This document shows, in pieces, positions 21,464 through 33,374 of a DNA stretch of 64,000 bases. Numbering within the stretch: position 1 is the first letter of the stretch; every line of letters begins with the position of its first letter. The notes beneath the pieces were generated by a model, which had not been told where the DNA came from, ran no database searches, and saw only the letters and a program-made list of their open reading frames with translations. Made by a program: the position numbers and the translations under genes. This stretch comes from Desulfuromonadales bacterium (GTDB lineage Bacteria; Desulfobacterota; Desulfuromonadia; Desulfuromonadales; Geopsychrobacteraceae): contig JAHYIY010000001.1 in NCBI GenBank assembly GCA_019429255.1, positions 62,001 through 126,000 on the forward strand, written 5' to 3'.

Positions 21464-23799
<2,336 letters not shown>

Positions 23800-23834
23800 A
23801 TCGCTGGGCCTACTTTCGCAGGAAAGGATTCACC

Positions 23835-24839
23835 ATGACCCATCTGCTTAATCCGCGCCGAGTCGACACCTGGCGGAACATCATCCAGTGGGGGTTTTTC
23901 CTTTGGATATTGTACCTGGGTATCCGCTTTGCACTGTTTGTCCGCCATTTTGAAACAGCCGGAGCAACTCCTTTTGTTTCACGGCCCCCGGGAGTGGAAG
24001 GATTCTTGCCAATCGGGGCGCTAATGAGCCTGAAACATTGGCTGATGAACGGCATGTTAGATGCGATTCACCCCGCTGCACTGATTCTCTTTATTACCTT
24101 CATGGCGATGAGCCTGCTGGCAAAAAAATCATTCTGTTCCTGGTTGTGCCCGGTCGGGACCTTGTCGGAGGGCATGTGGAAAACCGGCCAACGCTTTTTG
24201 GGGCGGAATTTTCAGGTCTGGAGCCGGCTTGATATCCCCTTGCGTGGACTGAAATACCTGTTATTTTTCTTTTTCGCCAAAACCATCCTCTACGATATGC
24301 CGGCACAGGCAATCAGCAGCTTTATGCGGGCCCCATACTGGGCCACCAGTGATGTCAAGATGCTTTATTTTTTTAAACAGATGTCCGTGACTGCCGCGGT
24401 CGTCATTCTCGTTCTGGGCGCTTTGTCTCTGCTTTACAAAAATTTCTGGTGCCGCTATCTCTGTCCTTACGGTGCCCTGCTCGGGCTACTGAGCATCTTT
24501 AGTCCGATGAAAATCAGGCGGGATGATGCTCAATGTAACAGTTGCGCTGAATGCGCCCATCATTGCCCCTCGTCCTTACCGGTACACCGAAAAAAAACCA
24601 TCCACAGTCCGGAATGTATCGGTTGTGTCAGTTGTGTCGAAAGCTGCCCCAGAAGCGCTCTGGCCATGTCTCTGCCACGGCTGAAGCAACCCCTGCCGCG
24701 GTGGGTGTTCCCTGTGCTTGTCGTGGGAATTTATGCTGGAGGAGTCACTTTCGGCATGATCACCGGAAACTGGCAGACATCTCTGAGCTACCAGGATTAT
24801 CAGCAGCTGATACCGCTGATAAACAGAGTCGGGCATTAA
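23835..24839 (+). CDS. NapH-like membrane polyferredoxin
   Basis: 334 residues with several membrane spans (about 15-35, 70-90, 135-155, 185-205, 295-315), the paired motifs CSWLCPVGTL and CRYLCPYGAL on cytoplasmic loops, and two C-terminal [4Fe-4S] ferredoxin motifs (CNSCAECAHHCP and CIGCVSCVESCP). This is the layout of NapH/MauN/CcoG-related electron-transfer proteins that pass electrons between quinol and periplasmic or cytoplasmic partners. No nap, nos or mau genes are adjacent, so its partner is unknown. Start has AAAGG about eight bases upstream; it follows acyP by 35 bp. Confidence 0.85.
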   Translation: MTHLLNPRRVDTWRNIIQWGFFLWILYLGIRFALFVRHFETAGATPFVSRPPGVEGFLPIGALMSLKHWLMNGMLDAIHPAALILFITFMAMSLLAKKSFCSWLCPVGTLSEGMWKTGQRFLGRNFQVWSRLDIPLRGLKYLLFFFFAKTILYDMPAQAISSFMRAPYWATSDVKMLYFFKQMSVTAAVVILVLGALSLLYKNFWCRYLCPYGALLGLLSIFSPMKIRRDDAQCNSCAECAHHCPSSLPVHRKKTIHSPECIGCVSCVESCPRSALAMSLPRLKQPLPRWVFPVLVVGIYAGGVTFGMITGNWQTSLSYQDYQQLIPLINRVGH

Positions 24840-24999
24840 GTGCCACCAGCAGTAACCCCTGTCGCCACAAAAACATACATCTGGCCCACATGGCACGATG
24901 CTCCTCCCCTCCTCACCCAGTCCAGACATACAAGGTTTTATCCTGTCCACCAGGCCAACTCATGTTACTTTTAGTATTTTATTGTTATTTCTAGTTCAT

Positions 25000-25036
25000 T
25001 GTAGAAAAAATCCACATAGCGTGGAAATATTCTACA
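25000..25036. promoter_or_regulatory. Inverted repeat, possible activator site
   Basis: TGTAGAA (25000-25006) and TTCTACA (25030-25036) are perfect 7-bp arms, with CCAC/GTGG inside. It lies about 125-160 bp upstream of the predicted start of the sigma54-like promoter, a normal distance for an enhancer-binding protein. Role inferred. Confidence 0.4.
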
Positions 25037-25134
25037 CAAACAGGCCAACAATCGGACACCATCATTCCTCCCAGCAGTAAAAAATGTCCCTGTATCCCTA
25101 GTTTGCCACCATTCAAGGCCCATAAACAGAATCC

Positions 25135-25149
25135 GGCACTTGTCTTGCA
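25135..25149 (+). promoter_or_regulatory. Candidate sigma54 (-24/-12) promoter
   Basis: GGCACTTGTCTTGCA has GG at 25135-25136 and GC at 25147-25148 separated by exactly 10 bases, and matches the consensus TGGCAC-N5-TTGC apart from its first base. Predicted start near 25160, ~150 nt upstream of the molbindin gene. Confidence 0.5.
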
Positions 25150-25191
25150 GCTAAAATAAGGCTATTAGTTATATATAGTTGTTTTTGGTTT

Positions 25192-25219
25192 GTTATGGAT
25201 ATTTAAATCCAGACATAAC
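25192..25219. promoter_or_regulatory. ModE-like palindrome GTTATG...CATAAC
   Basis: GTTATG (25192-25197) and CATAAC (25214-25219) form an inverted repeat in an AT-rich context just downstream of the predicted start; a further GTTATATAT is at 25168-25176. Half-sites resemble those of ModE operators, but the spacing is longer than in Escherichia coli. Candidate metal-oxyanion-responsive site. Confidence 0.35.
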
Positions 25220-25226
25220 ATTAACC

Positions 25227-25289
25227 TCTGATTACTGTAACTGTTTATCCTGAAGGATCATGGACGATGATCAATCTGATGTAATCAGA
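25227..25289 (+). promoter_or_regulatory. Leader with mutually exclusive hairpins
   Basis: TCTGATTAC (25227-25235) pairs perfectly with GTAATCAGA (25281-25289). The right arm can instead form TCTGATgtaATCAGA (25275-25289). Inside, ATCCTGAAGGAT (25247-25258) competes with GATCAT-ggacg-ATGATC (25256-25272). The site is 12 bases upstream of the GGGAGG ribosome binding site. Confidence 0.4.
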
Positions 25290-25312
25290 ATAACCCTTGA
25301 CGGGAGGCAATG

Positions 25313-25741
25313 ATGAAAATCAGCACAAGAAACGTATTAAATGGAAAAGTGACGGCAATAAAACGCGGCGCGGTAAATTCAGAGGTAGAGATGACAATTG
25401 CCGGAGGACACAGGATTGTAGCCATCATCACTAATGAGAGCGTTGAGGCGTTGGGCCTCATCAATGGAAGAAACGCTTTTGCCTTGATCAAGGCTCCCCT
25501 GGTGGCTATCGGCAAGGACATTGCCGGTATGAAATTCAGCACCCGAAATATTTTGGAAGGCACCATCAAAGACATCACTCACGGATCGGTTAATGGTGGA
25601 GTGACAATCGACCTTCCAGGTGGCAACTTGATGGAGGCTATCGTTACTGAGCATAGCATTGCCGAACTGAAACTAAAAGTAAACGACACGGTAACGGCCT
25701 TTTTTAAAGCGTCACATGTCATTGTTGCTGTCACAGATTGA
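25313..25741 (+). CDS. mop: Molbindin: two tandem Mop (TOBE) domains
   Basis: 142 residues made of two homologous halves, KISTRNVLNGKVTAIKRGAVNSEV and KFSTRNILEGTIKDITHGSVNGGV, each one Mop domain. Such di-Mop proteins bind molybdate or tungstate in the cytoplasm and are thought to buffer or store the oxyanion. The second of two adjacent ATGs (25313) has correct spacing from GGGAGG. It heads the Tup/MoeA island and has the most elaborate upstream region in the window. Confidence 0.92.
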   Translation: MKISTRNVLNGKVTAIKRGAVNSEVEMTIAGGHRIVAIITNESVEALGLINGRNAFALIKAPLVAIGKDIAGMKFSTRNILEGTIKDITHGSVNGGVTIDLPGGNLMEAIVTEHSIAELKLKVNDTVTAFFKASHVIVAVTD

Positions 25742-25925
25742 ATGAAAACCAGTAGAAGTTAAAACACCACAGTACCCACTTATAAGGATATTGTTTTCAG
25801 TTGGTCCTGAATAAAACCGTGGTGATAAAAGACCTGGATTGAAACCCAACCATTTATCAGGCGTTGTTAGGTGATTTCGGTGCGGCACAATAGTGTCGGA
25901 TTCTTTAACTCAAGGAGAAATGATC

Positions 25926-26729
25926 ATGTCTATATTTCGTATTTTATTATCCGTTTTGCTCATGTTATCGCTGGCCGGAACAAGTTTCGCTACGGAACGA
26001 TTACGCTTGTCCACTACGACTTCAACCGAGAACTCCGGGCTGCTCAAGGTACTTGTCCCTCCTTTCGAGAAGAACAATGATTGCCGCGTCGACGTCATTT
26101 CAGTCGGCACGGGCAAGGCGCTAAAACTGGGCGAAGCAGGGGACGTCGACGTCGTCCTGGTGCATGCACGCACATTGGAAGACAAGTTCGTTGCGGACGG
26201 GTTCGGGGTCAATCGAAAAGATGTCATGTACAACGATTTTGTTATTCTCGGACCAGTCGCTGATCCGGCCGGGGTCAAAGGGTCGAAGACAACCTCCGAA
26301 GCTTTTTCCAGAATTGCCGGAAAAAAGATATCCTTTGTCTCTCGTGGGGACGAGTCAGGAACACATCAGAAAGAGAAAGAGATCTGGCAGGCCGCCGGTG
26401 TGACCCCGACGGGGTCCTGGTATATGGAGGCCGGCCAGGGCATGGGTGAAGTGCTTATCATGGCAACAGAAAAAGAAGCCTATACGATGTCCGACCGAGG
26501 TACTTACAATGCCTTCAAAAAATCAAAAACCGACCTGGTCATTGTCTTCGAGGGCGAAGAGGGCCTGTTTAATCCCTATGGAGTAATAGCCGTAAATCCG
26601 CAAAAACACCCGCACGTAAAATACGATCTGGCAATGAAATTTATTAACTATATCACCGGTCCTGAAGGACAAAAAATTATCGCCGAGTTCAAGGTCGACG
26701 GCGACCCGCTTTTCTTCACCTACAAATAA
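25926..26729 (+). CDS. tupA: Tungstate ABC transporter substrate-binding protein
   Basis: Periplasmic tungstate-binding protein of the TupA family. A signal peptide (MSIFRILLSVLLMLSLAGTSFA) is followed by LRLSTTTSTENSGLL, where TTTS is the oxyanion-binding start of TupA proteins, and by SRGDESGTHQKE, the second ligand loop. ATG 25926 is preferred because AAGGAG lies eight bases before it. 267 residues. TupA proteins select tungstate over molybdate with very high affinity, so this locus is probably tungstate-specific. A 190-bp gap with a long hairpin separates it from tupB. Confidence 0.93.
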   Translation: MSIFRILLSVLLMLSLAGTSFATERLRLSTTTSTENSGLLKVLVPPFEKNNDCRVDVISVGTGKALKLGEAGDVDVVLVHARTLEDKFVADGFGVNRKDVMYNDFVILGPVADPAGVKGSKTTSEAFSRIAGKKISFVSRGDESGTHQKEKEIWQAAGVTPTGSWYMEAGQGMGEVLIMATEKEAYTMSDRGTYNAFKKSKTDLVIVFEGEEGLFNPYGVIAVNPQKHPHVKYDLAMKFINYITGPEGQKIIAEFKVDGDPLFFTYK

Positions 26730-26778
26730 CTGGTTTCCTTACTGAAGCGGTTCTTTTGCGTCCTTTCTTACAAGAAGT

Positions 26779-26823
26779 ACTTCACTGTGACTATCCCGAT
26801 TCTCCGGATGGTCACAGTGAAGT
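26779..26823 (+). terminator. Long hairpin between tupA and tupB
   Basis: ACTTCACTGTGAC (26779-26791) pairs with GTCACAGTGAAGT (26811-26823), extended by ATCC/GGAT. There is no T-tract, so it may stabilise the tupA 3' end or reduce expression of the downstream genes rather than terminate fully. Confidence 0.55.
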
Positions 26824-26919
26824 TTCCGGACGGAAATTATTTAGCTTCATGAATGATCCGATTCACCGTCAGCTCACCTTATCCCACTGAGTAAGGAAAC
26901 GTCCAAAGAAGGTTTACTA

Positions 26920-27606
26920 ATGGAATTTCTTTTTGAATCTCTGCGCACCGCCTTAACCCTCATCCTTGCCCTTGATTTCGATGTCGTCGATGCGGTCGGC
27001 ACGTCTCTGAAGGTGTCGATCTGGTCGGTTATTCTGGCTGCTACGGTGGGGATTCCCTTCGGAGTAGCCGTCGCGGTGAATGAGTTTCGCGGAAAGCGGA
27101 TCCTGATCACCCTTATCAACACTCTAATGGCATTGCCGACCGTGGTTGTTGGCCTGGTCGTATATGGTTTTCTAAGCCGCCAGGGACCCTTAGGTGAGTT
27201 GTCATTGCTTTTTTCTCCAGCCGCTATGATTATCGGCCAGACAGTACTGGCCCTGCCAATTGTCGTCCATTACTCACTGGGTGCAGTGCGGGGTGCAGAC
27301 GCACGGATACTACCAACGGCCAGGACCTTGGGAGCGGGACCACTAAGATGTTTGATCAGACTCGTTCTTGATGTGCGTTTCGGCATTGTCGCAGCTGTCA
27401 TTGCTGCATTTGGCCGAGTGGTTGCCGAGGTGGGAGTGGCAATGATGCTCGGTGGCAACATCCGCGGTTACACACGGTCAATGACAACCGCGATTGCCCT
27501 GGAAACAAGTAAAGGAGAATTCGCTTTCGGATTAGCCTTGGGAATTTTTCTGATGGCTGTAGCGCTGTTCATTAATATCCTTTTCAATGTGATGCAGGAG
27601 CGATAA
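26920..27606 (+). CDS. tupB: Tungstate ABC transporter permease
   Basis: 228-residue inner-membrane permease with about five to six spans. The cytoplasmic coupling loop EVGVAMMLGGNIRGYTRSMTTAIALE has the EAA-like pattern of TupB/ModB permeases. AAGAAGG precedes the start. It is 4 bp from tupC. It would form a homodimeric channel with two TupC subunits and dock TupA. Confidence 0.93.
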   Translation: MEFLFESLRTALTLILALDFDVVDAVGTSLKVSIWSVILAATVGIPFGVAVAVNEFRGKRILITLINTLMALPTVVVGLVVYGFLSRQGPLGELSLLFSPAAMIIGQTVLALPIVVHYSLGAVRGADARILPTARTLGAGPLRCLIRLVLDVRFGIVAAVIAAFGRVVAEVGVAMMLGGNIRGYTRSMTTAIALETSKGEFAFGLALGIFLMAVALFINILFNVMQER

Positions 27607-27610
27607 GCAC

Positions 27611-28294
27611 ATGTCGGCACTTTACCAACTTAAAGATATTGGACGCAGGTATGGCACCCGCCCGGTTCTTGACATTGACTCGCTCCAACTGCAGGCAGGT
27701 CGGCTTTATACGCTGACTGGAGCAAACGGATCCGGAAAAACCACATTATTACAAATCCTTGCCTTCCTCCAGCCGCCCAACTCCGGTAACCTAATTTTTC
27801 GAGGATTACCGGTGACCTGGTCAAGGGGAGTACTGCGACAATTACGTCGGGAGGTCACTCTGCTACATCAGTCACCTTATCTATTCGCCACCAGTGTCTA
27901 CGCAAATGTGACTTTTGGTTTAAGGTCCAGGGGGATCAGGGGAGAGAAGCTTCGACGGGCAGCCATGGCTGCCCTGGAAACCTGTGGTCTCAGTGGCTTT
28001 GAGGGGCGCAGCGCACGAGAACTTTCAGGGGGAGAGGCGCAAAGAGTCGCCATGGCCCGCGCCCTGGCATTGCAACCAGCCGTGCTTCTTCTCGACGAAC
28101 CTTTAGCCAACGTAGACAGCGAGACGTCTTCTCTTTTGCTCCAGGTGATTCGCTCTTTGCCGAAAGCTGGAACATCCGTTATTATGACCACCCATGATCC
28201 ACGCCATCAGTCCGACCTCAATAGTATAACGATCCATCTGGAAAATGGTTGCGTTGTTTCGAATGCAACCTCATCACACTCAGGGATATTATGA
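27611..28294 (+). CDS. tupC: Tungstate ABC transporter ATP-binding protein
   Basis: 227-residue ABC ATPase: Walker A GANGSGKTT, Q-loop LLHQSPYLF, signature ELSGGEAQRVAMARAL, Walker B VLLLDEPLANVD and switch histidine TTHDPRH. It lacks the C-terminal regulatory TOBE domain found in ModC, as is usual for TupC. The moeA start overlaps its stop (ATGA at 28291-28294). Confidence 0.93.
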   Translation: MSALYQLKDIGRRYGTRPVLDIDSLQLQAGRLYTLTGANGSGKTTLLQILAFLQPPNSGNLIFRGLPVTWSRGVLRQLRREVTLLHQSPYLFATSVYANVTFGLRSRGIRGEKLRRAAMAALETCGLSGFEGRSARELSGGEAQRVAMARALALQPAVLLLDEPLANVDSETSSLLLQVIRSLPKAGTSVIMTTHDPRHQSDLNSITIHLENGCVVSNATSSHSGIL

Positions 28295-29532
28295 AATCGG
28301 TTTTTTTAAATACTTACAGTCGTTTTGAATTCGAGGACTTATTGCAATCCTTTCCGCCCGTCGGCACCGAAACTGTCGCTTTTAATCGCTCGTGCTATCG
28401 AGTCTTAGCTGAAGAACTTATTTCCCCTGAGGAACTCCCGGCCGCCAGGCGGTCGTCGATGGACGGTTATGCCTTGCGAGCGGCCGATGCCTTTGGGGCA
28501 AGCGACAACAATCCTGCCTACCTCGAATGCACGCGCCGTCTGGAAGTAAATGAATATCCGGATTTCACACTGCAATCGGGGGAATGCGCCTGGATTGCTA
28601 CCGGAGGGGTATTGCCGCAAGATGCCGACAGCGTAGTAATGGTCGAATATACGCAAGAGATAGGTTCCGCAACCATCGAGATTCGTCAAAGTGTAGCTCC
28701 AGGAGAAAACATGATGGAGCGCGGTGAAGACGCAACGATCGGGCAGAGAATGATTTTACCCGGCAGCAGATTACGTCCCCAGGAGGTTGGGTTACTGGCA
28801 GCCCTCGGCATCACCGAGGTAACAGTTCATCGGCGGCCGCGTGTTGCTATTCTCTCAACCGGAAATGAACTGGTAGCTGCTACCGAACATCCCGCTCCGG
28901 GCCAAGTCCGAGACGTCAATGCCCATACCATTGCCTGTCTGGCCGAAGAGGCGGGTGGGGAGCCCATCCATTGCGGTATTGTTGGCGATCATCTTGAGGA
29001 ACTGTTGCCGGCACTTAAAAGTGCCCTCGCGCAAAGTGACGTCGTCTTTCTTTCCGGCGGCAGTTCCAAAGGGACACGCGATCTGACCATCGCAGCCCTG
29101 TCTGAGATACCTGGTGCTGACATTCTGGCTCATGGAGTGAGGATCAGCCCGGGCAAGCCCACAATTCTGGCCCGGGTAGGGACTAAGGGCGTTGTTGGGT
29201 TGCCCGGCCAGGTCGGCTCGGCTCAGGTGGTGATGGCCGTGCTGGGTCGCCCCTTCCTCCGACACCTTGCCGGCGATCATCAGGCATTCTCCCAAAAACT
29301 GCGGCCACTACGCCAAGCACGCCTTGGGCGCAATCTATATTCTCGCCAGGGGCGGGAAGATTTTGTCCGAGTAAAGCTCGAGCCGGGGCCGGAAAAAACT
29401 CTCCTGGCACAGCCGGTAATGGGCAAATCGGGGCTGCTTCGCTCGCTGTTACAGAGCGATGGGCTTCTTGTCATCCCGGCCGAAGTAGAAGGATTCCAGG
29501 CGGGAGAAGATGTCGAAGTCTGGCTTCTTTGA
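28291..29532 (+). CDS. moeA: Molybdopterin molybdenumtransferase MoeA (first copy)
   Basis: Inserts molybdate or tungstate into adenylylated molybdopterin. 413 residues: MoeA N-terminal regions with RSSMDGYALRAADAF, the central molybdopterin-binding domain with VAILSTGNELV, VFLSGGSSKGTRDLT and SPGKPTILARV, and the C-terminal domain. ATG 28291 is coupled to the tupC stop. Together with the second MoeA directly downstream, it suggests one copy serves tungsten and one molybdenum, as proposed for organisms with both metals; which is which cannot be seen. Confidence 0.93.
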   Translation: MKSVFLNTYSRFEFEDLLQSFPPVGTETVAFNRSCYRVLAEELISPEELPAARRSSMDGYALRAADAFGASDNNPAYLECTRRLEVNEYPDFTLQSGECAWIATGGVLPQDADSVVMVEYTQEIGSATIEIRQSVAPGENMMERGEDATIGQRMILPGSRLRPQEVGLLAALGITEVTVHRRPRVAILSTGNELVAATEHPAPGQVRDVNAHTIACLAEEAGGEPIHCGIVGDHLEELLPALKSALAQSDVVFLSGGSSKGTRDLTIAALSEIPGADILAHGVRISPGKPTILARVGTKGVVGLPGQVGSAQVVMAVLGRPFLRHLAGDHQAFSQKLRPLRQARLGRNLYSRQGREDFVRVKLEPGPEKTLLAQPVMGKSGLLRSLLQSDGLLVIPAEVEGFQAGEDVEVWLL

Positions 29533-29561
29533 AAAACGCACCCCCAACAGGGACACACACT

Positions 29562-31502
29562 ATGTCTACTCGCAACATCTATCTTAAAACTATGCCACCC
29601 GCCGATGCGGTTACTAAGGCCAAAGCTGTTCTTAATCGTGAGCGGCTTATCAAAAAGGAAATAATTCCGGTTTCCGAGGCTTCCGGTCGAGTGACCGCAG
29701 CTCCGGTCTACGCCCGCTATTCTGCTCCCAGTTTCCACGCAGCGGCAATGGACGGAATCGCCGTATGGGCAAAGAAAACTTACTTCGCCCGAGAGGGGTA
29801 TCCTGTCCGACTTGAGCCTGAAACCGATTTTTTCCCCGTCAACACTGGCGAGCCCATCCCCCCTGGAATGGATACCGTTATTAAAATTGAAGAGACGATC
29901 GGGACCTCCTCAGGTGCCATTTTCATTGAATCTCCACACTTTCCGTGGGCGCATGTGCGCCGTGTCGGTCAGGACATTGTGGCAAGCGAACTGTTGCTCA
30001 CGTGCAATCATCTTCTTTCCCCTTATGACATTGGTGCCCTTTTGGCCGCCGGTGTGTGGGAGATAGAGGTTTGGGAGCGGGTTAAGCTGGTGTTTATTCC
30101 AACTGGCAGCGAAGTACTTGACTTCGCCTTGCGCCCATCTCCCGGGCTGGGACAGATCGTAGAAAGCAATTCGCAAATATTTTGCGCATTAGCCCGTTCC
30201 TGGGGAGCTTTGCCCAACAACGTTTCACCAGTGCCCGACAATCCAGAGATGTTACGAGAAGCAGTTCAACAAGCCCTCACCTCTGACGCCCAGGTGGTTG
30301 TCGTAGGGGCAGGATCTTCGGCTGGAGAAACGGATTATACTGCCAGGGTTTTTGCTGAACTGGGTGAGGTACTTGTACGTGGACTTGCCATAAGTCCCGG
30401 AAAACCCACGCTGCTAGGCGTCGCAGCCGGCAAATTGCTGGTGGGAGCCCCTGGATATCCGGGCAGCGCCGTTGCTTGCTTTGAAGAGGTCCTGGCCCCT
30501 TTAGTCGCCTGGCTGGGACGTTCTATTTCTGTGGAACGCGAACGCCTGAATGTCAAGCTTACCCGCAACATCCCTTCCCCGCTGGGCACCGAAGAGATGG
30601 TGCGACTGGCCGTTGGGCGCATCGCTGGAGAAGCTCTGGCAGTTCCCTTGGGAAGAGGCTCCGGAATGATAACCAACCTCGCTAAAGCCCAGGCACTGCT
30701 GCGGGTGACGGCCGCAAGTGAAGGAGTTGACCAGGGAGATACAATGGAAGCGGAATTGCTGGTACCAAGGTCGGTTCTTGACCAGGTACTACTGCATGTG
30801 GGCAGCCATGACATCTTGCTCGACTTGCTGGCCAATGAACTCATGAGTCTCAACCAACCGGTTCGTTTGGTATCCAGCAATGTCGGCAGCCTTGCGGGAT
30901 TGGCAGCCATCCGGGATTGTTCAGCCATGTTTGCAGGGAGCCATCTCCTCGATCCGGGAACAGAAGACTTTAACTTCCCTGCTTTAGCGAAGTACCTCCC
31001 CGGCATCGATGTCTATGTGATCAACCTTGCCATTCGCCACCAGGGCCTGATCGTCCCTAAGGGCAATCCCAAGCGGTTGCAACAGATTGAGGATCTTGCG
31101 CGTGAGGAGGTTACCTTCATCAACCGCCAACGTGGTGCCGGCACCCGTATCCTGCTTGATTACCATCTACAGAAGGCTGGCATTGATCCCTCAAATATCC
31201 GTGGCTATCAGCACGAGGAATTTACTCACATGGCGGTGGCAGTGAATGTGCTGAGCGGCGCCGTAGACACAGGCCTCGGAATCAGTTCTGCTGCCCGTGC
31301 ATTAGATCTTGACTTTGTCCCCCTGGCTCGAGAGCGCTACGACATCGTCATTCCCCGCATTTTTCTGAATGATCCAAGAATACAGTCCCTGCTTTCGCTT
31401 CTCCAGCAATCGGAGCTGAAGTCTAAAATTGAATCGTTTGGAGGATATGAGACCACTTTGACCGGTCGGGAAATGGCTCCAGGGATGGGACTTGACGGCT
31501 AA
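29562..31502 (+). CDS. MoeA fused to a C-terminal PBP-like ligand-binding domain
   Basis: 646 residues. The first ~405 form a complete MoeA (FHAAAMDGIAVWAKK, FIPTGSEVLDFAL, VVVGAGSSAGETDYTA, AISPGKPTLLG). Residues ~415-635 form a periplasmic-binding-protein-like domain (PBP_like, TupA-related) with no signal peptide: VGSHDILLDLLA, NVGSLAGLAAI, RHQGLIVPKGNPKRLQQI and AVDTGLGISSAA. A PBP-like domain in the cytoplasm attached to the metal-insertion enzyme suggests it presents or senses the oxyanion. The same domain is on the next gene. Start is the ATG 29 bp after moeA; its ribosome binding site is weak. Confidence 0.9.
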   Translation: MSTRNIYLKTMPPADAVTKAKAVLNRERLIKKEIIPVSEASGRVTAAPVYARYSAPSFHAAAMDGIAVWAKKTYFAREGYPVRLEPETDFFPVNTGEPIPPGMDTVIKIEETIGTSSGAIFIESPHFPWAHVRRVGQDIVASELLLTCNHLLSPYDIGALLAAGVWEIEVWERVKLVFIPTGSEVLDFALRPSPGLGQIVESNSQIFCALARSWGALPNNVSPVPDNPEMLREAVQQALTSDAQVVVVGAGSSAGETDYTARVFAELGEVLVRGLAISPGKPTLLGVAAGKLLVGAPGYPGSAVACFEEVLAPLVAWLGRSISVERERLNVKLTRNIPSPLGTEEMVRLAVGRIAGEALAVPLGRGSGMITNLAKAQALLRVTAASEGVDQGDTMEAELLVPRSVLDQVLLHVGSHDILLDLLANELMSLNQPVRLVSSNVGSLAGLAAIRDCSAMFAGSHLLDPGTEDFNFPALAKYLPGIDVYVINLAIRHQGLIVPKGNPKRLQQIEDLAREEVTFINRQRGAGTRILLDYHLQKAGIDPSNIRGYQHEEFTHMAVAVNVLSGAVDTGLGISSAARALDLDFVPLARERYDIVIPRIFLNDPRIQSLLSLLQQSELKSKIESFGGYETTLTGREMAPGMGLDG

Positions 31503-31580
31503 ATTATTATTTTCTATCCTTGTCCCGCGCCGGCAGGTATTCAGGTTCCCATGCAACGGTTTAAACCAAGCGAGTAAATT

Positions 31581-32489
31581 ATGGAAAAACTTCTCTCAAC
31601 CAAAGACGTTGCAGAATTTCTGGGAGTCAACGAGAAGATGGTTTATACCCTGATCAACGAGAAGGGTCTGCCGGCGACGCGGATCACCGGAAAATGGTTA
31701 TTTCCAAAACATTTGGTCGAACAGTGGGTGGTGAACAAGACCCTTAACTACCCTCAACAAATGGAATCGGCTGTCCAGGTCCCTAACCTTTTGTTGGTCG
31801 CCGGCAGCAATGACATTTTGTTGGACCGGACACTGGCGCTCTTTCAACACGAATATCCGGAATACGTCGCCATGTTTGGCAACCTGGGCAGCCTTGGGGG
31901 ACTGCGGGCTCTACGTGCGGGACGTTGTCATCTTGCCGCCAGCCATTTGGCTGAGGAAAACGGGGAAGAATACAATTTTTCCTATGCGGCAAGTGAACTG
32001 GAAGAGTTGCCGGCAGTTGTCAACTTTTGCCGTCGCCAACAGGGACTCTTGGTCCCCAGGGGAAATCCCCGCAATGTTCAGGAGATCAGCGACATTGGCG
32101 CCAAGGAGCTGAGAATTGTCAACCGGCCCCTTGATGCCAGCACTCGATTGCTCCTTGATCGTGAGCTGAAAAAAGCAGGTCTCGACTGTCGCGACATCAA
32201 GGGATATGAGCGCGAGTTCAATAGCCATCTTGAAATCGGCCTGGAGGTCATGTCCGGGCGTGCGGACACCGGTCTGGGCATCAGCGCTGTAGCATGCTTG
32301 CTTGGACTCGACTTTTTACCTTTGCGCTGGGAGCGTTTCGATCTGCTGATACCCAAGGACGGCTTTTTCACCAAAGCAACGCAGTTGTTTCTGGACCTTC
32401 TTCACAGTAGCGCGTTCCACGATCTGATCCAGGGTCTGCCCGGATATGACCTGACCTTGAGCGGCAAGATGATTTATCCACGGGAGTAA
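31581..32489 (+). CDS. Helix-turn-helix regulator with PBP-like sensor domain
   Basis: 302 residues. The N-terminus (about 1-50; LLSTKDVAEFLGVNEKMVYTLINEKG, then GKWLFPKHLVEQWV) is an excisionase/MerR-type helix-turn-helix of the HTH_17 kind. Residues ~70-295 match the PBP-like domain of the upstream MoeA fusion almost motif for motif (GSNDILLDRTLA, NLGSLGGLRALRAG, RQQGLLVPRGNPRNVQEI, RADTGLGISAVA). It is probably a one-component sensor of tungstate, molybdate or a related ligand that controls this island; ligand and operator are inferred. It is convergent with rsmI, 21 bp apart. Confidence 0.88.
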   Translation: MEKLLSTKDVAEFLGVNEKMVYTLINEKGLPATRITGKWLFPKHLVEQWVVNKTLNYPQQMESAVQVPNLLLVAGSNDILLDRTLALFQHEYPEYVAMFGNLGSLGGLRALRAGRCHLAASHLAEENGEEYNFSYAASELEELPAVVNFCRRQQGLLVPRGNPRNVQEISDIGAKELRIVNRPLDASTRLLLDRELKKAGLDCRDIKGYEREFNSHLEIGLEVMSGRADTGLGISAVACLLGLDFLPLRWERFDLLIPKDGFFTKATQLFLDLLHSSAFHDLIQGLPGYDLTLSGKMIYPRE

Positions 32490-32510
32490 ACCAGCATCCT
32501 GCCTTATTGA

Positions 32511-33374
32511 TCAACCGGAACCCTCTTCGTCCCCCTCAACCTCCTTCTTCCGCAATGCCAGAGACTCCCGATAAACTTCGCTGCCGGCGACGCCATGATC
32601 ACGCGCAACCAACTTGACAATTTCTTTCCAATCAAGATCAGTGGTCTGGCGCAAATGGAGCAACTGCTCTGCTATTGTCATCGCCGGTGCCTGCCGGGGT
32701 GCCGCTGCCAGCATGATGACCAACTCCCCTTTCACGCTCTCCCGCTCGGAAAAGTCGGTGAGTGCTTCTTGTGCCGTACCGGCAAACAACTCTTCATGAC
32801 GCTTGGTCAATTCACGCGCAATGGCAACCCGACACTCACCGCCACAGATCTCAACAATATCGGACAAGGTTGCCAGCAAGCGGTGGGGAGCTTCGTACAT
32901 GACCTGGGTCGTTGATTCATCACTACAGCGTTGCAACACAGTACGTCTGGCCTGGGTCTTGGCCGGCAGAAACCCGAGAAAGCGAAACCCTTCCGTCGGC
33001 AGTCCGGCAATGGACAGTGCGGCGATCACGGCAGAGGAACCGGGTACGGCTACTACCGGAATTTCTTCATGATGACAACGCTGCACCAGTTCATAACCGG
33101 GGTCGGCAATACAGGGGGTACCGGCATCACTGATCAGGGCGATACTTTCACCCTCCTTAAGACGCGCCAGGAGCTGCTCAGCGCGCCCTTTTTCGTTGTG
33201 ATCGTGGTACGAAATCAGCCGTGTGGCAATACCGTAATGGCTCAGCAGTTTGCGGCTATGGCGGGTATCTTCGGCGGCGATCAAGACCACCTCCGCCAAA
33301 ATCCTGACGGCCCGATAGGTCATATCTTCAAGATTACCGATCGGCGTAGCCACAACATAGAGGGTTCCGCTCAC
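32511..33374 (-). CDS. rsmI: 16S rRNA (cytidine1402-2'-O)-methyltransferase
   Basis: 287-residue tetrapyrrole-methylase-fold enzyme that 2'-O-methylates C1402, the same nucleotide that RsmH (at 18504) modifies on the base. Signatures [38 protein letters not shown] and [19 protein letters not shown]. Its ATG overlaps the nadE stop by 4 bp. Confidence 0.96.

Follow-up and report, generated by a model that had tools for sequence, protein, structure and literature searches.

Which ligand does a one-component regulator sense, and which genes does it control, when its sensor domain recurs in a MoeA enzyme encoded beside it? The question is raised by a taoR-like gene in a 64,000-nucleotide stretch from a Desulfuromonadales bacterium (assembly GCA_019429255.1, contig JAHYIY010000001.1, positions 62,001 to 126,000 of the forward strand; hereafter, the window). 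The encoded protein joins an excisionase-type helix-turn-helix (HTH) head to a body resembling periplasmic binding proteins (PBP). We consider it likely that this TaoR-family regulator senses a molybdenum or tungsten (Mo/W) ligand, most likely tungstate, binds arrays of GT half-sites and controls the genes from mop to taoR. The features on which this reading centers are the following.

31581..32489, + strand: taoR-like regulator gene, ATG start, 302 aa; HTH_17 at residues 4-50 and PBP_like sensor at residues 87-274
25167..25196, + strand: candidate operator array 2; GT half-sites at 25168, 25178 and 25188, 10-bp pitch; 113 bp before the mop ATG
24963..24992, + strand: candidate operator array 1; GT half-sites at 24964, 24974 and 24984; 204 bp upstream of array 2, same direction

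The regulator belongs to a known family

Pfam assigns the regulator an HTH_17 domain (PF12728, residues 4-50, 46.8 bits against a cut-off of 27) and, C-terminal to it, a PBP_like domain (PF12727, residues 87-274, 207.3 bits), confirming the excisionase-type HTH and PBP-like body proposed in the initial annotation; the NCBIfam 'excise' model TIGR01764 also matches (36.9 bits, cut-off 28.8). These are the only Pfam domains at E ≤ 0.001, and at that threshold the protein carries no TOBE domain or TOBE-type sensor, no LysR HTH_1 or LysR_substrate domain, and no XerC/D-like DNA-binding domain. ModE is a one-component, Mo/W-linked regulator of a transport operon that senses through TOBE domains; the contrast with ModE drawn initially holds, as the window regulator is without TOBE. 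TunR is tungstate-responsive and couples a phage-derived DNA-binding domain of XerC/D type to a ModE-like sensor, whereas the window regulator has neither an integrase nor a TOBE domain. LysR regulators share the plan of a DNA-binding head and a PBP type II effector domain, but the head here is HTH_17 rather than the LysR HTH, and the operator proposed here is a 10-bp direct-repeat array where that of LysR is a dyad.

The sensor half matches the MoeA fusion motif by motif, as first noted, and all four motifs are present in both proteins: GSNDILLD in the regulator and GSHDILLD in the fusion, GSLGGLRALR and GSLAGLAAIR, RQQGLLVPRGNP and RHQGLIVPKGNP, and DTGLGIS in both. Residues 68-300 of the regulator (233 residues) are 41% identical to the fusion (E 1.5e-49), and no other protein of the 2.74-Mb genome matches PF12727 at E ≤ 0.001. 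The description of this plan as unusual does not stand: the HTH-PBP plan is that of the TaoR family, published by Rajeev et al. (2019, Environ Microbiol 21:784) and cited in PMC11980592 and PMC10102598, and MoeA-PBP is likewise a described fusion (PMC11733289). The marks of the TaoR family, namely the HTH_17 head, the PF12727 sensor behind it and linkage to W/Mo genes, are all found in the regulator, and its assignment as a TaoR-family one-component regulator of known kind, linked to tungstate or molybdate, is well supported on sequence grounds.

In PMC10102598, D. vulgaris tupR (DVU3193) is named as the regulator of tungstate uptake, with the same 2019 citation. Desulfovibrionaceae proteins (L074, L077, L086) lie inside the HTH-PBP tree group of the window regulator, that of L074 (Desulfovibrio sp. 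A2) being 50% identical to it. The present locus differs from TaoR in that taoR stands last of seven co-directional genes including moeA and moeA/PBP, and in that no array was detected around the four AFOR_C genes of the genome. Gut 'TaoR-like' proteins carry an extra TOBE domain (PMC11980592) and the window regulator does not. The MoeA1/MoeA-PBP fusion (PMC11733289), represented by DVU0951 with its PF12727 domain (PMC10102598), shares the PBP_like domain but is an enzyme fusion without an HTH, and its PBP domain falls outside the HTH-PBP tree group.

Scanning a genome collection with the regulator returned 68 loci. We count 67 as HTH-PBP proteins, mainly from Desulfobacterales and Desulfuromonadales; this includes two partial matches (L083, L087), takes L141 and L142 as the same places as L021 and L058, counted once, and excludes the Alkaliphilus locus L085, a MoeA-PBP. 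Genes resembling tupA, tupB or tupC (best tblastn match, >60 bits and >36% identity) occur in the fetched DNA of 44 of the 67 loci and all three in 28; the linkage is a lower bound because several contigs are short. Together with the operator arrays described below, it speaks for the initial proposal of a local W/Mo regulator. The regulator gene is patchy in its own family: 14 of 44 genomes match the query, but the PBP part is matched in only three (own genome, G041, G039) and the HTH region alone in the others. Two further plans or forms were seen. L124 (also L123, L125, L126 and L127) encodes a protein of about 384 aa with an XRE-type HTH_3 and the same PBP_like sensor (Pfam was run on L124), and L005 of G039 encodes a distant HTH-PBP protein with 30% identity, a very long branch and an array-like 19.2-bit site near the gene.

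GT-repeat arrays precede the probable operon

A motif was found de novo by expectation maximization on 112 upstream regions, including four of the window. It is a direct repeat of 10-bp period with three GT half-sites. When it was retrained on the 67 taoR upstream regions without the window, the best of up to 25 starts gained 425.9 in likelihood; for shuffled input, searched from fewer starts (up to 12), the best gain was 106.6. In the 50 displayed arrays (48 from relatives, two from the window), GT stands at offsets 3, 13 and 23 in 96, 100 and 98%, with a fourth GT at offset 33 in 34%; because the motif itself selected the arrays, the first three percentages describe it and do not test it. 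Five-fold held-out testing put 38 of 67 regions above the 99% quantile of the null (about 0.7 expected) and 33 above its maximum, although the hold-out is incomplete because the register of the training sites was taken from the full matrix. Thirty-eight of the 67 loci carry an array above 17 bits in the 420 bp upstream of taoR, and 37 of these 38 have one that points towards taoR.

Scored with a position weight matrix trained without the window, array 2 (25.2 bits) is the best site on either strand of the 64 kb and array 1 (19.9 bits) the second-best independent one; the next site overlapping neither reaches 7.2 bits, and the highest score over 20 triplet-shuffled windows is 14.2 bits. None of 3000 dinucleotide shuffles of the 470-bp mop intergenic region reached 19.9 bits. 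A sequence-only covariance model, for which 37 of the 44 best sites and no window site were used, likewise ranks array 2 first and array 1 second in the window (E 0.011 and 0.37). Across the whole genome at E ≤ 10, array 2 is its sole match (E 0.55; 150 of 311 candidates scored), a search of limited sensitivity since array 1 is missing from its matches. No array was found before tupA, tupB or taoR in the window. Of two binding regions suggested initially, 25160-25312 contains array 2 and 25742-25925 contains no array. Between the two arrays lies a hairpin (24994-25050, z -4.15) that on the minus strand presents an inner stem and then a T run, resembling a terminator.

A description of the TaoR operator was not found in the literature covered on TaoR and tungstate-responsive regulators, which was available in part; we claim no novelty for the GT motif, because the text of Rajeev et al. 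(2019) lies outside that coverage.

The sensor has a PBP type II fold

An AlphaFold model of the window protein, built from its alignment with 34 orthologues (35 sequences in all), has a mean pLDDT of 88.9 and a pTM of 0.73. VIA-align matches regulator residues 69-292 first to tungstate-bound ModA (1wod; Z 17.7 over 212 aligned residues, rmsd 3.0). LysR effector domains (Z about 17), phosphate-binding proteins and the tungstate-binding protein 3lr1 of Geobacter (Z 16.9) score on a par with it. The modeled body is clearly a two-lobed PBP type II fold of ModA/TupA-like kind. These matches come from fold searches only, there being no sequence relatives of the regulator in the PDB at E ≤ 10.

Thirty-five positions are conserved both in at least 95% of 80 regulators and in at least 90% of 10 MoeA fusions, among them S76, D78, S104, H122, R152, R182, T188, R189, H216, E251, R252 and D254, and eight are fixed differently (L005 and five XRE-type rows excluded). 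On these counts, the initial suggestion that regulator and enzyme sense the same ligand is probably right. The MoeA-PBP domain aligns weakly with the TupA profile (E 0.0032, probability 10%), and both this alignment and a still weaker one of the regulator, given below, place the conserved arginine and threonine (R182, T188) on the R-x5-T stretch of TupA, that is, on R118 and T124 in the numbering of PMC5517513. According to that source, R118, T124 and D170 belong to the pocket lobe of TupA, and the R118E variant shows no binding. Fold, conserved residues and the weak TupA alignment favor an oxyanion ligand; they do not separate tungstate, molybdate and a cofactor intermediate.

Array geometry and direction of control

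Of 51 arrays, 39 are followed 35-85 bp downstream by TTGAC (6% for random positions), which, in a comparison with LysR, would seat the row of bound heads upstream of a -35-like box. The distances from array to TTGAC tend to recur with a period of 10.5 bp (R 0.6), the nominal p of 7e-7 being inflated by relatedness. Such geometry fits binding upstream of the -35 box with polymerase contacted from one face, and suggests activation. In L030 and L042, however, TTGAC lies upstream of the array by eye, and an array borders directly on the following gene start in L134 and L130, arrangements that suggest repression. The family may act in both directions, and a call of activator or repressor from geometry was abandoned over this conflict. 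TaoR is said to activate aor and to repress tupABC. A search for a canonical sigma-70 promoter beside the window arrays gave only 9-of-12 matches (three found, 1.5 expected).

Same-direction twin arrays stand upstream of tup genes in the window (204 bp apart) and in three relatives not in motif training: L129 (226 bp), L130 (227 bp, ahead of a Porin_O_P gene and tupA) and L138 (215 bp), with weak second arrays in L129 (15.5 bits) and L130 (12.5 bits). At 10.5 bp the four spacings give a resultant of 0.91, a similar helical phase, as looping would require; with four cases only, this is suggestive. Twins as a general rule were rejected, as L134 and L139 have single arrays, L140 has two arrays for two operons and L136 has one per direction. 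Opposite-direction pairs occur in several training loci, for example L023, L024 and L059. We offer tentatively, as an idea that is more probably wrong than right, a LysR-like switch assembled from phage parts: the excisionase-type heads would form a head-to-tail filament on the GT repeats (compare phage Xis), and two filaments about 204-227 bp apart would pair by DNA looping and shut or open the tungstate operon, gated by the MoeA-type sensor.

Proposed mechanism and alternatives

Building on the observed genes, domains and arrays, and on the recurrence and position of the arrays, we infer how DNA contact, ligand, operon transcription and direction of control may fit together. The PBP-like body, a cytoplasmic version of the ModA/TupA/LysR-effector fold, would close around its Mo/W ligand, for which the tungstate oxyanion is the likeliest candidate. 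HTH heads would sit side by side on at least three GT half-sites, about one helical turn (10 bp) apart and on one DNA face, forming a short head-to-tail row. Rows at 24963-24992 and 25167-25196 would control mop-tupABC-moeA-moeA/PBP-taoR, the regulator included, and the likely net effect would be less transcription when tungstate is plentiful. In agreement with this direction, work cited by PMC11733289 saw moeA1 expression of D. alaskensis fall with tungsten.

Several results weigh against this proposal. The regulator aligns only weakly with a profile of 41 TupA sequences (E 0.041, probability 1.3%). In 29 of the 67 loci the 420 bp upstream of taoR hold no array above 17 bits, at least 250 bp having been fetched in 27 of them, and 23 loci have none in any fetched DNA, so that the operator code is not universal. 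The tupA loci L036, L037 and L058 of the Desulfuromonas group lack an array and L137 and L143 reach only 9-12 bits; a universal operator was rejected on account of this group. Arrays are also missing from the Desulfovibrionaceae loci L074, L077 and L086. In the own genome, four AFOR_C, six molybdopterin-oxidoreductase and three mod-region loci, taken with flanks of about 1.5 kb, yield none either, the best site reaching 5.5 bits. In the window promoter, TTGAC is absent at its usual distance from the array. Separately, taoR and tupA are neighbors in L036, L037, L058, L137 and L143, where some spacers hold other GTTA arrangements by eye, possibly a diverged operator.

The ligand could differ from tungstate in more than one way. 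That the sensor binds molybdate, or both oxyanions, rather than tungstate alone is a minority reading of some weight: the structural match to ModA is as good as that to a tungstate-binding protein, and in one relative an array precedes a ModA-like gene (L140:5351), but the linkage is to tup-like genes, and the own modA locus is separate, has its own TOBE proteins and shows no array (best site 2.5 bits). It is slightly more doubtful that the ligand is a cofactor intermediate (MPT-AMP or finished Moco/Wco), so that the regulator reads cofactor supply and the MoeA domain presents substrate or product. The same body is fused to a metal-inserting enzyme; the shared R152, R182, R189, E251, R252, D254, H122 and H216 amount to more charge than a bare oxyanion would seem to need; and a continuous groove leads from the PBP-like site to the MoeA active site in an archaeal model (PMC11733289). 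Against this, fold and size match ModA and small-anion binders, though LysR effectors of larger ligands tie, the unguided if weak alignment sets R182 and T188 on the oxyanion residues of TupA, and taoR is linked to uptake genes in the 44 loci.

Tungstate sensing through the GT arrays would fail differently if these were the sites of another regulator, or AT-rich promoter architecture, with the regulator acting elsewhere. The 23 loci without an array in fetched DNA fit that explanation, which we nevertheless regard as improbable given the dinucleotide shuffles of the mop intergenic region and the arrays that precede Mo/W genes in loci and regions outside training. Moreover, the moeA-moeA/PBP stretches without taoR (L131, L132, L133, L135) show no array in fetched DNA even at 9 bits (0 of 4), although taoR elsewhere in those genomes is not excluded.

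The closeness of the regulator and moeA/PBP genes and their 41% identity would fit the recent local duplication suggested initially, but the phylogeny of the PBP domains leaves that origin with next to no probability. In a tree of 96 rows, which includes the long-branched L005, HTH-PBP rows form one side of a branch (89/82) and MoeA-PBP rows likewise (94/53); the window regulator groups with six relatives, five from its order (100/100), and the window MoeA-PBP with that of G069 (100/95). In the 39 of these rows used for the approximately unbiased (AU) test, without L005, the HTH-PBP grouping holds (99/100) and MoeA-PBP is not one branch side (22% of bootstrap trees). Forcing the two window domains into a clade costs 217.7 log-likelihood units in this set (p-AU 1.4e-34), each domain grouping with its own kind from other genomes. 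MoeA-PBP also stands beside moeA without taoR in the fetched DNA of four members of the order (L131, L132, L133, L135) and of Alkaliphilus, and adjacent moeA, moeA/PBP and taoR recur in L129 and L130. Tree, AU rejection and gene layouts therefore indicate separate lineages brought together rather than a fresh local copy.

The gene island and other array targets

Seven co-directional genes span 25310-32489, taoR being the last; the six before it are as follows.

25310..25741, + strand: mop, encoding a W/Mo binding or storage protein with two TOBE/Mop domains; first gene downstream of the arrays
25920..26729, + strand: tupA, tungstate-binding protein; NF041772 246.7 bits, under the 400-bit cut-off; ATG 25920 after AAGGAG
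26920..27606, + strand: tupB, permease; NF041773 197.9 bits, under the 320-bit cut-off; subfamily NF038017 231.3 bits, above cut-off
27611..28294, + strand: tupC, ABC ATPase; Tup assignment by position; TupC model 121.9 bits, under cut-off, one among many matches
28291..29532, + strand: moeA; MoeA_N, MoCF_biosynth and MoeA_C; ATG 28291 overlaps the tupC stop
29562..31502, + strand: moeA fused to C-terminal PBP_like (PF12727 at residues 424-615); NF011068 677.4 bits, cut-off 534; an alternative TTG start at 29529 is possible

The NCBIfam Tup models score well yet fall under their equivalog cut-offs. MoeA-PBP is described as co-occurring with TupA (PMC11733289). The stretch mop-tupABC-moeA-moeA/PBP-taoR is probably a single autoregulated operon; downstream of it lie convergent genes with TP_methylase and NAD_synthase domains. 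Elsewhere, the genome holds the separate modA locus, four AFOR_C matches and six Molybdopterin-family matches. The tupA-tupB gap contains a strong stem-loop (26780-26822, 17-bp outer stem, no T run; z -5.5 for 26780-26860), which could set the dosage of tupA relative to tupBC. Riboswitch control of the island, for example by a Moco motif, was dropped, as 23500-33000 has no Rfam match at E ≤ 1.

In relatives, arrays outside the training regions precede tupA in L129, L134, L136 and L138, and at L139:4702 an array is followed by a Porin_O_P gene, tupA, tupC and taoR. Genes of Porin_O_P, the phosphate-selective porin family, stand directly behind arrays in L130, L139 and L039 and are a possible outer-membrane route for the oxyanion. 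L039, L043, L044, L046 and L057 each carry an array 3.4-4.5 kb upstream of taoR that stands in front of two genes, the leading one being Porin_O_P in L039, the one tested; behind the pair come tupA and taoR in L043, L044, L046 and L057, and taoR then tupA in L039. The ModA-like gene behind the array at L140:5351 encodes a binding protein and is followed by permease and ATPase genes. The array at L021:3269 precedes an operon with Complex1_51K and Molybdopterin domains, read as an NAD-linked formate dehydrogenase. Also downstream of a GT array in this locus, a molybdopterin-oxidoreductase frame of formate-dehydrogenase-like kind (L021:5376-8090) is split at a stop after NNVDHCARL, which we take to be the usual place of selenocysteine.

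Implications

This gene is a good regulon model but, its plan being already known from TaoR, not a new type of system. It sets a concrete, testable operator, of three GT steps at 10-bp pitch in two arrays, beside a TaoR-type regulator, and ties tungstate uptake, metal insertion by two MoeA proteins and regulation into one probable operon. The arrays also mark Porin_O_P outer-membrane genes as candidate members of a tungstate regulon. Since 35 positions are shared despite separate lineages, the ligand of either protein, once solved, would inform both. PMC10102598 infers a requirement for both moeA genes in making the tungsten cofactor of Aor, without Mo/W specialization between them; an answer on the shared ligand would bear on the question raised there of why many genomes have two moeA-like genes.
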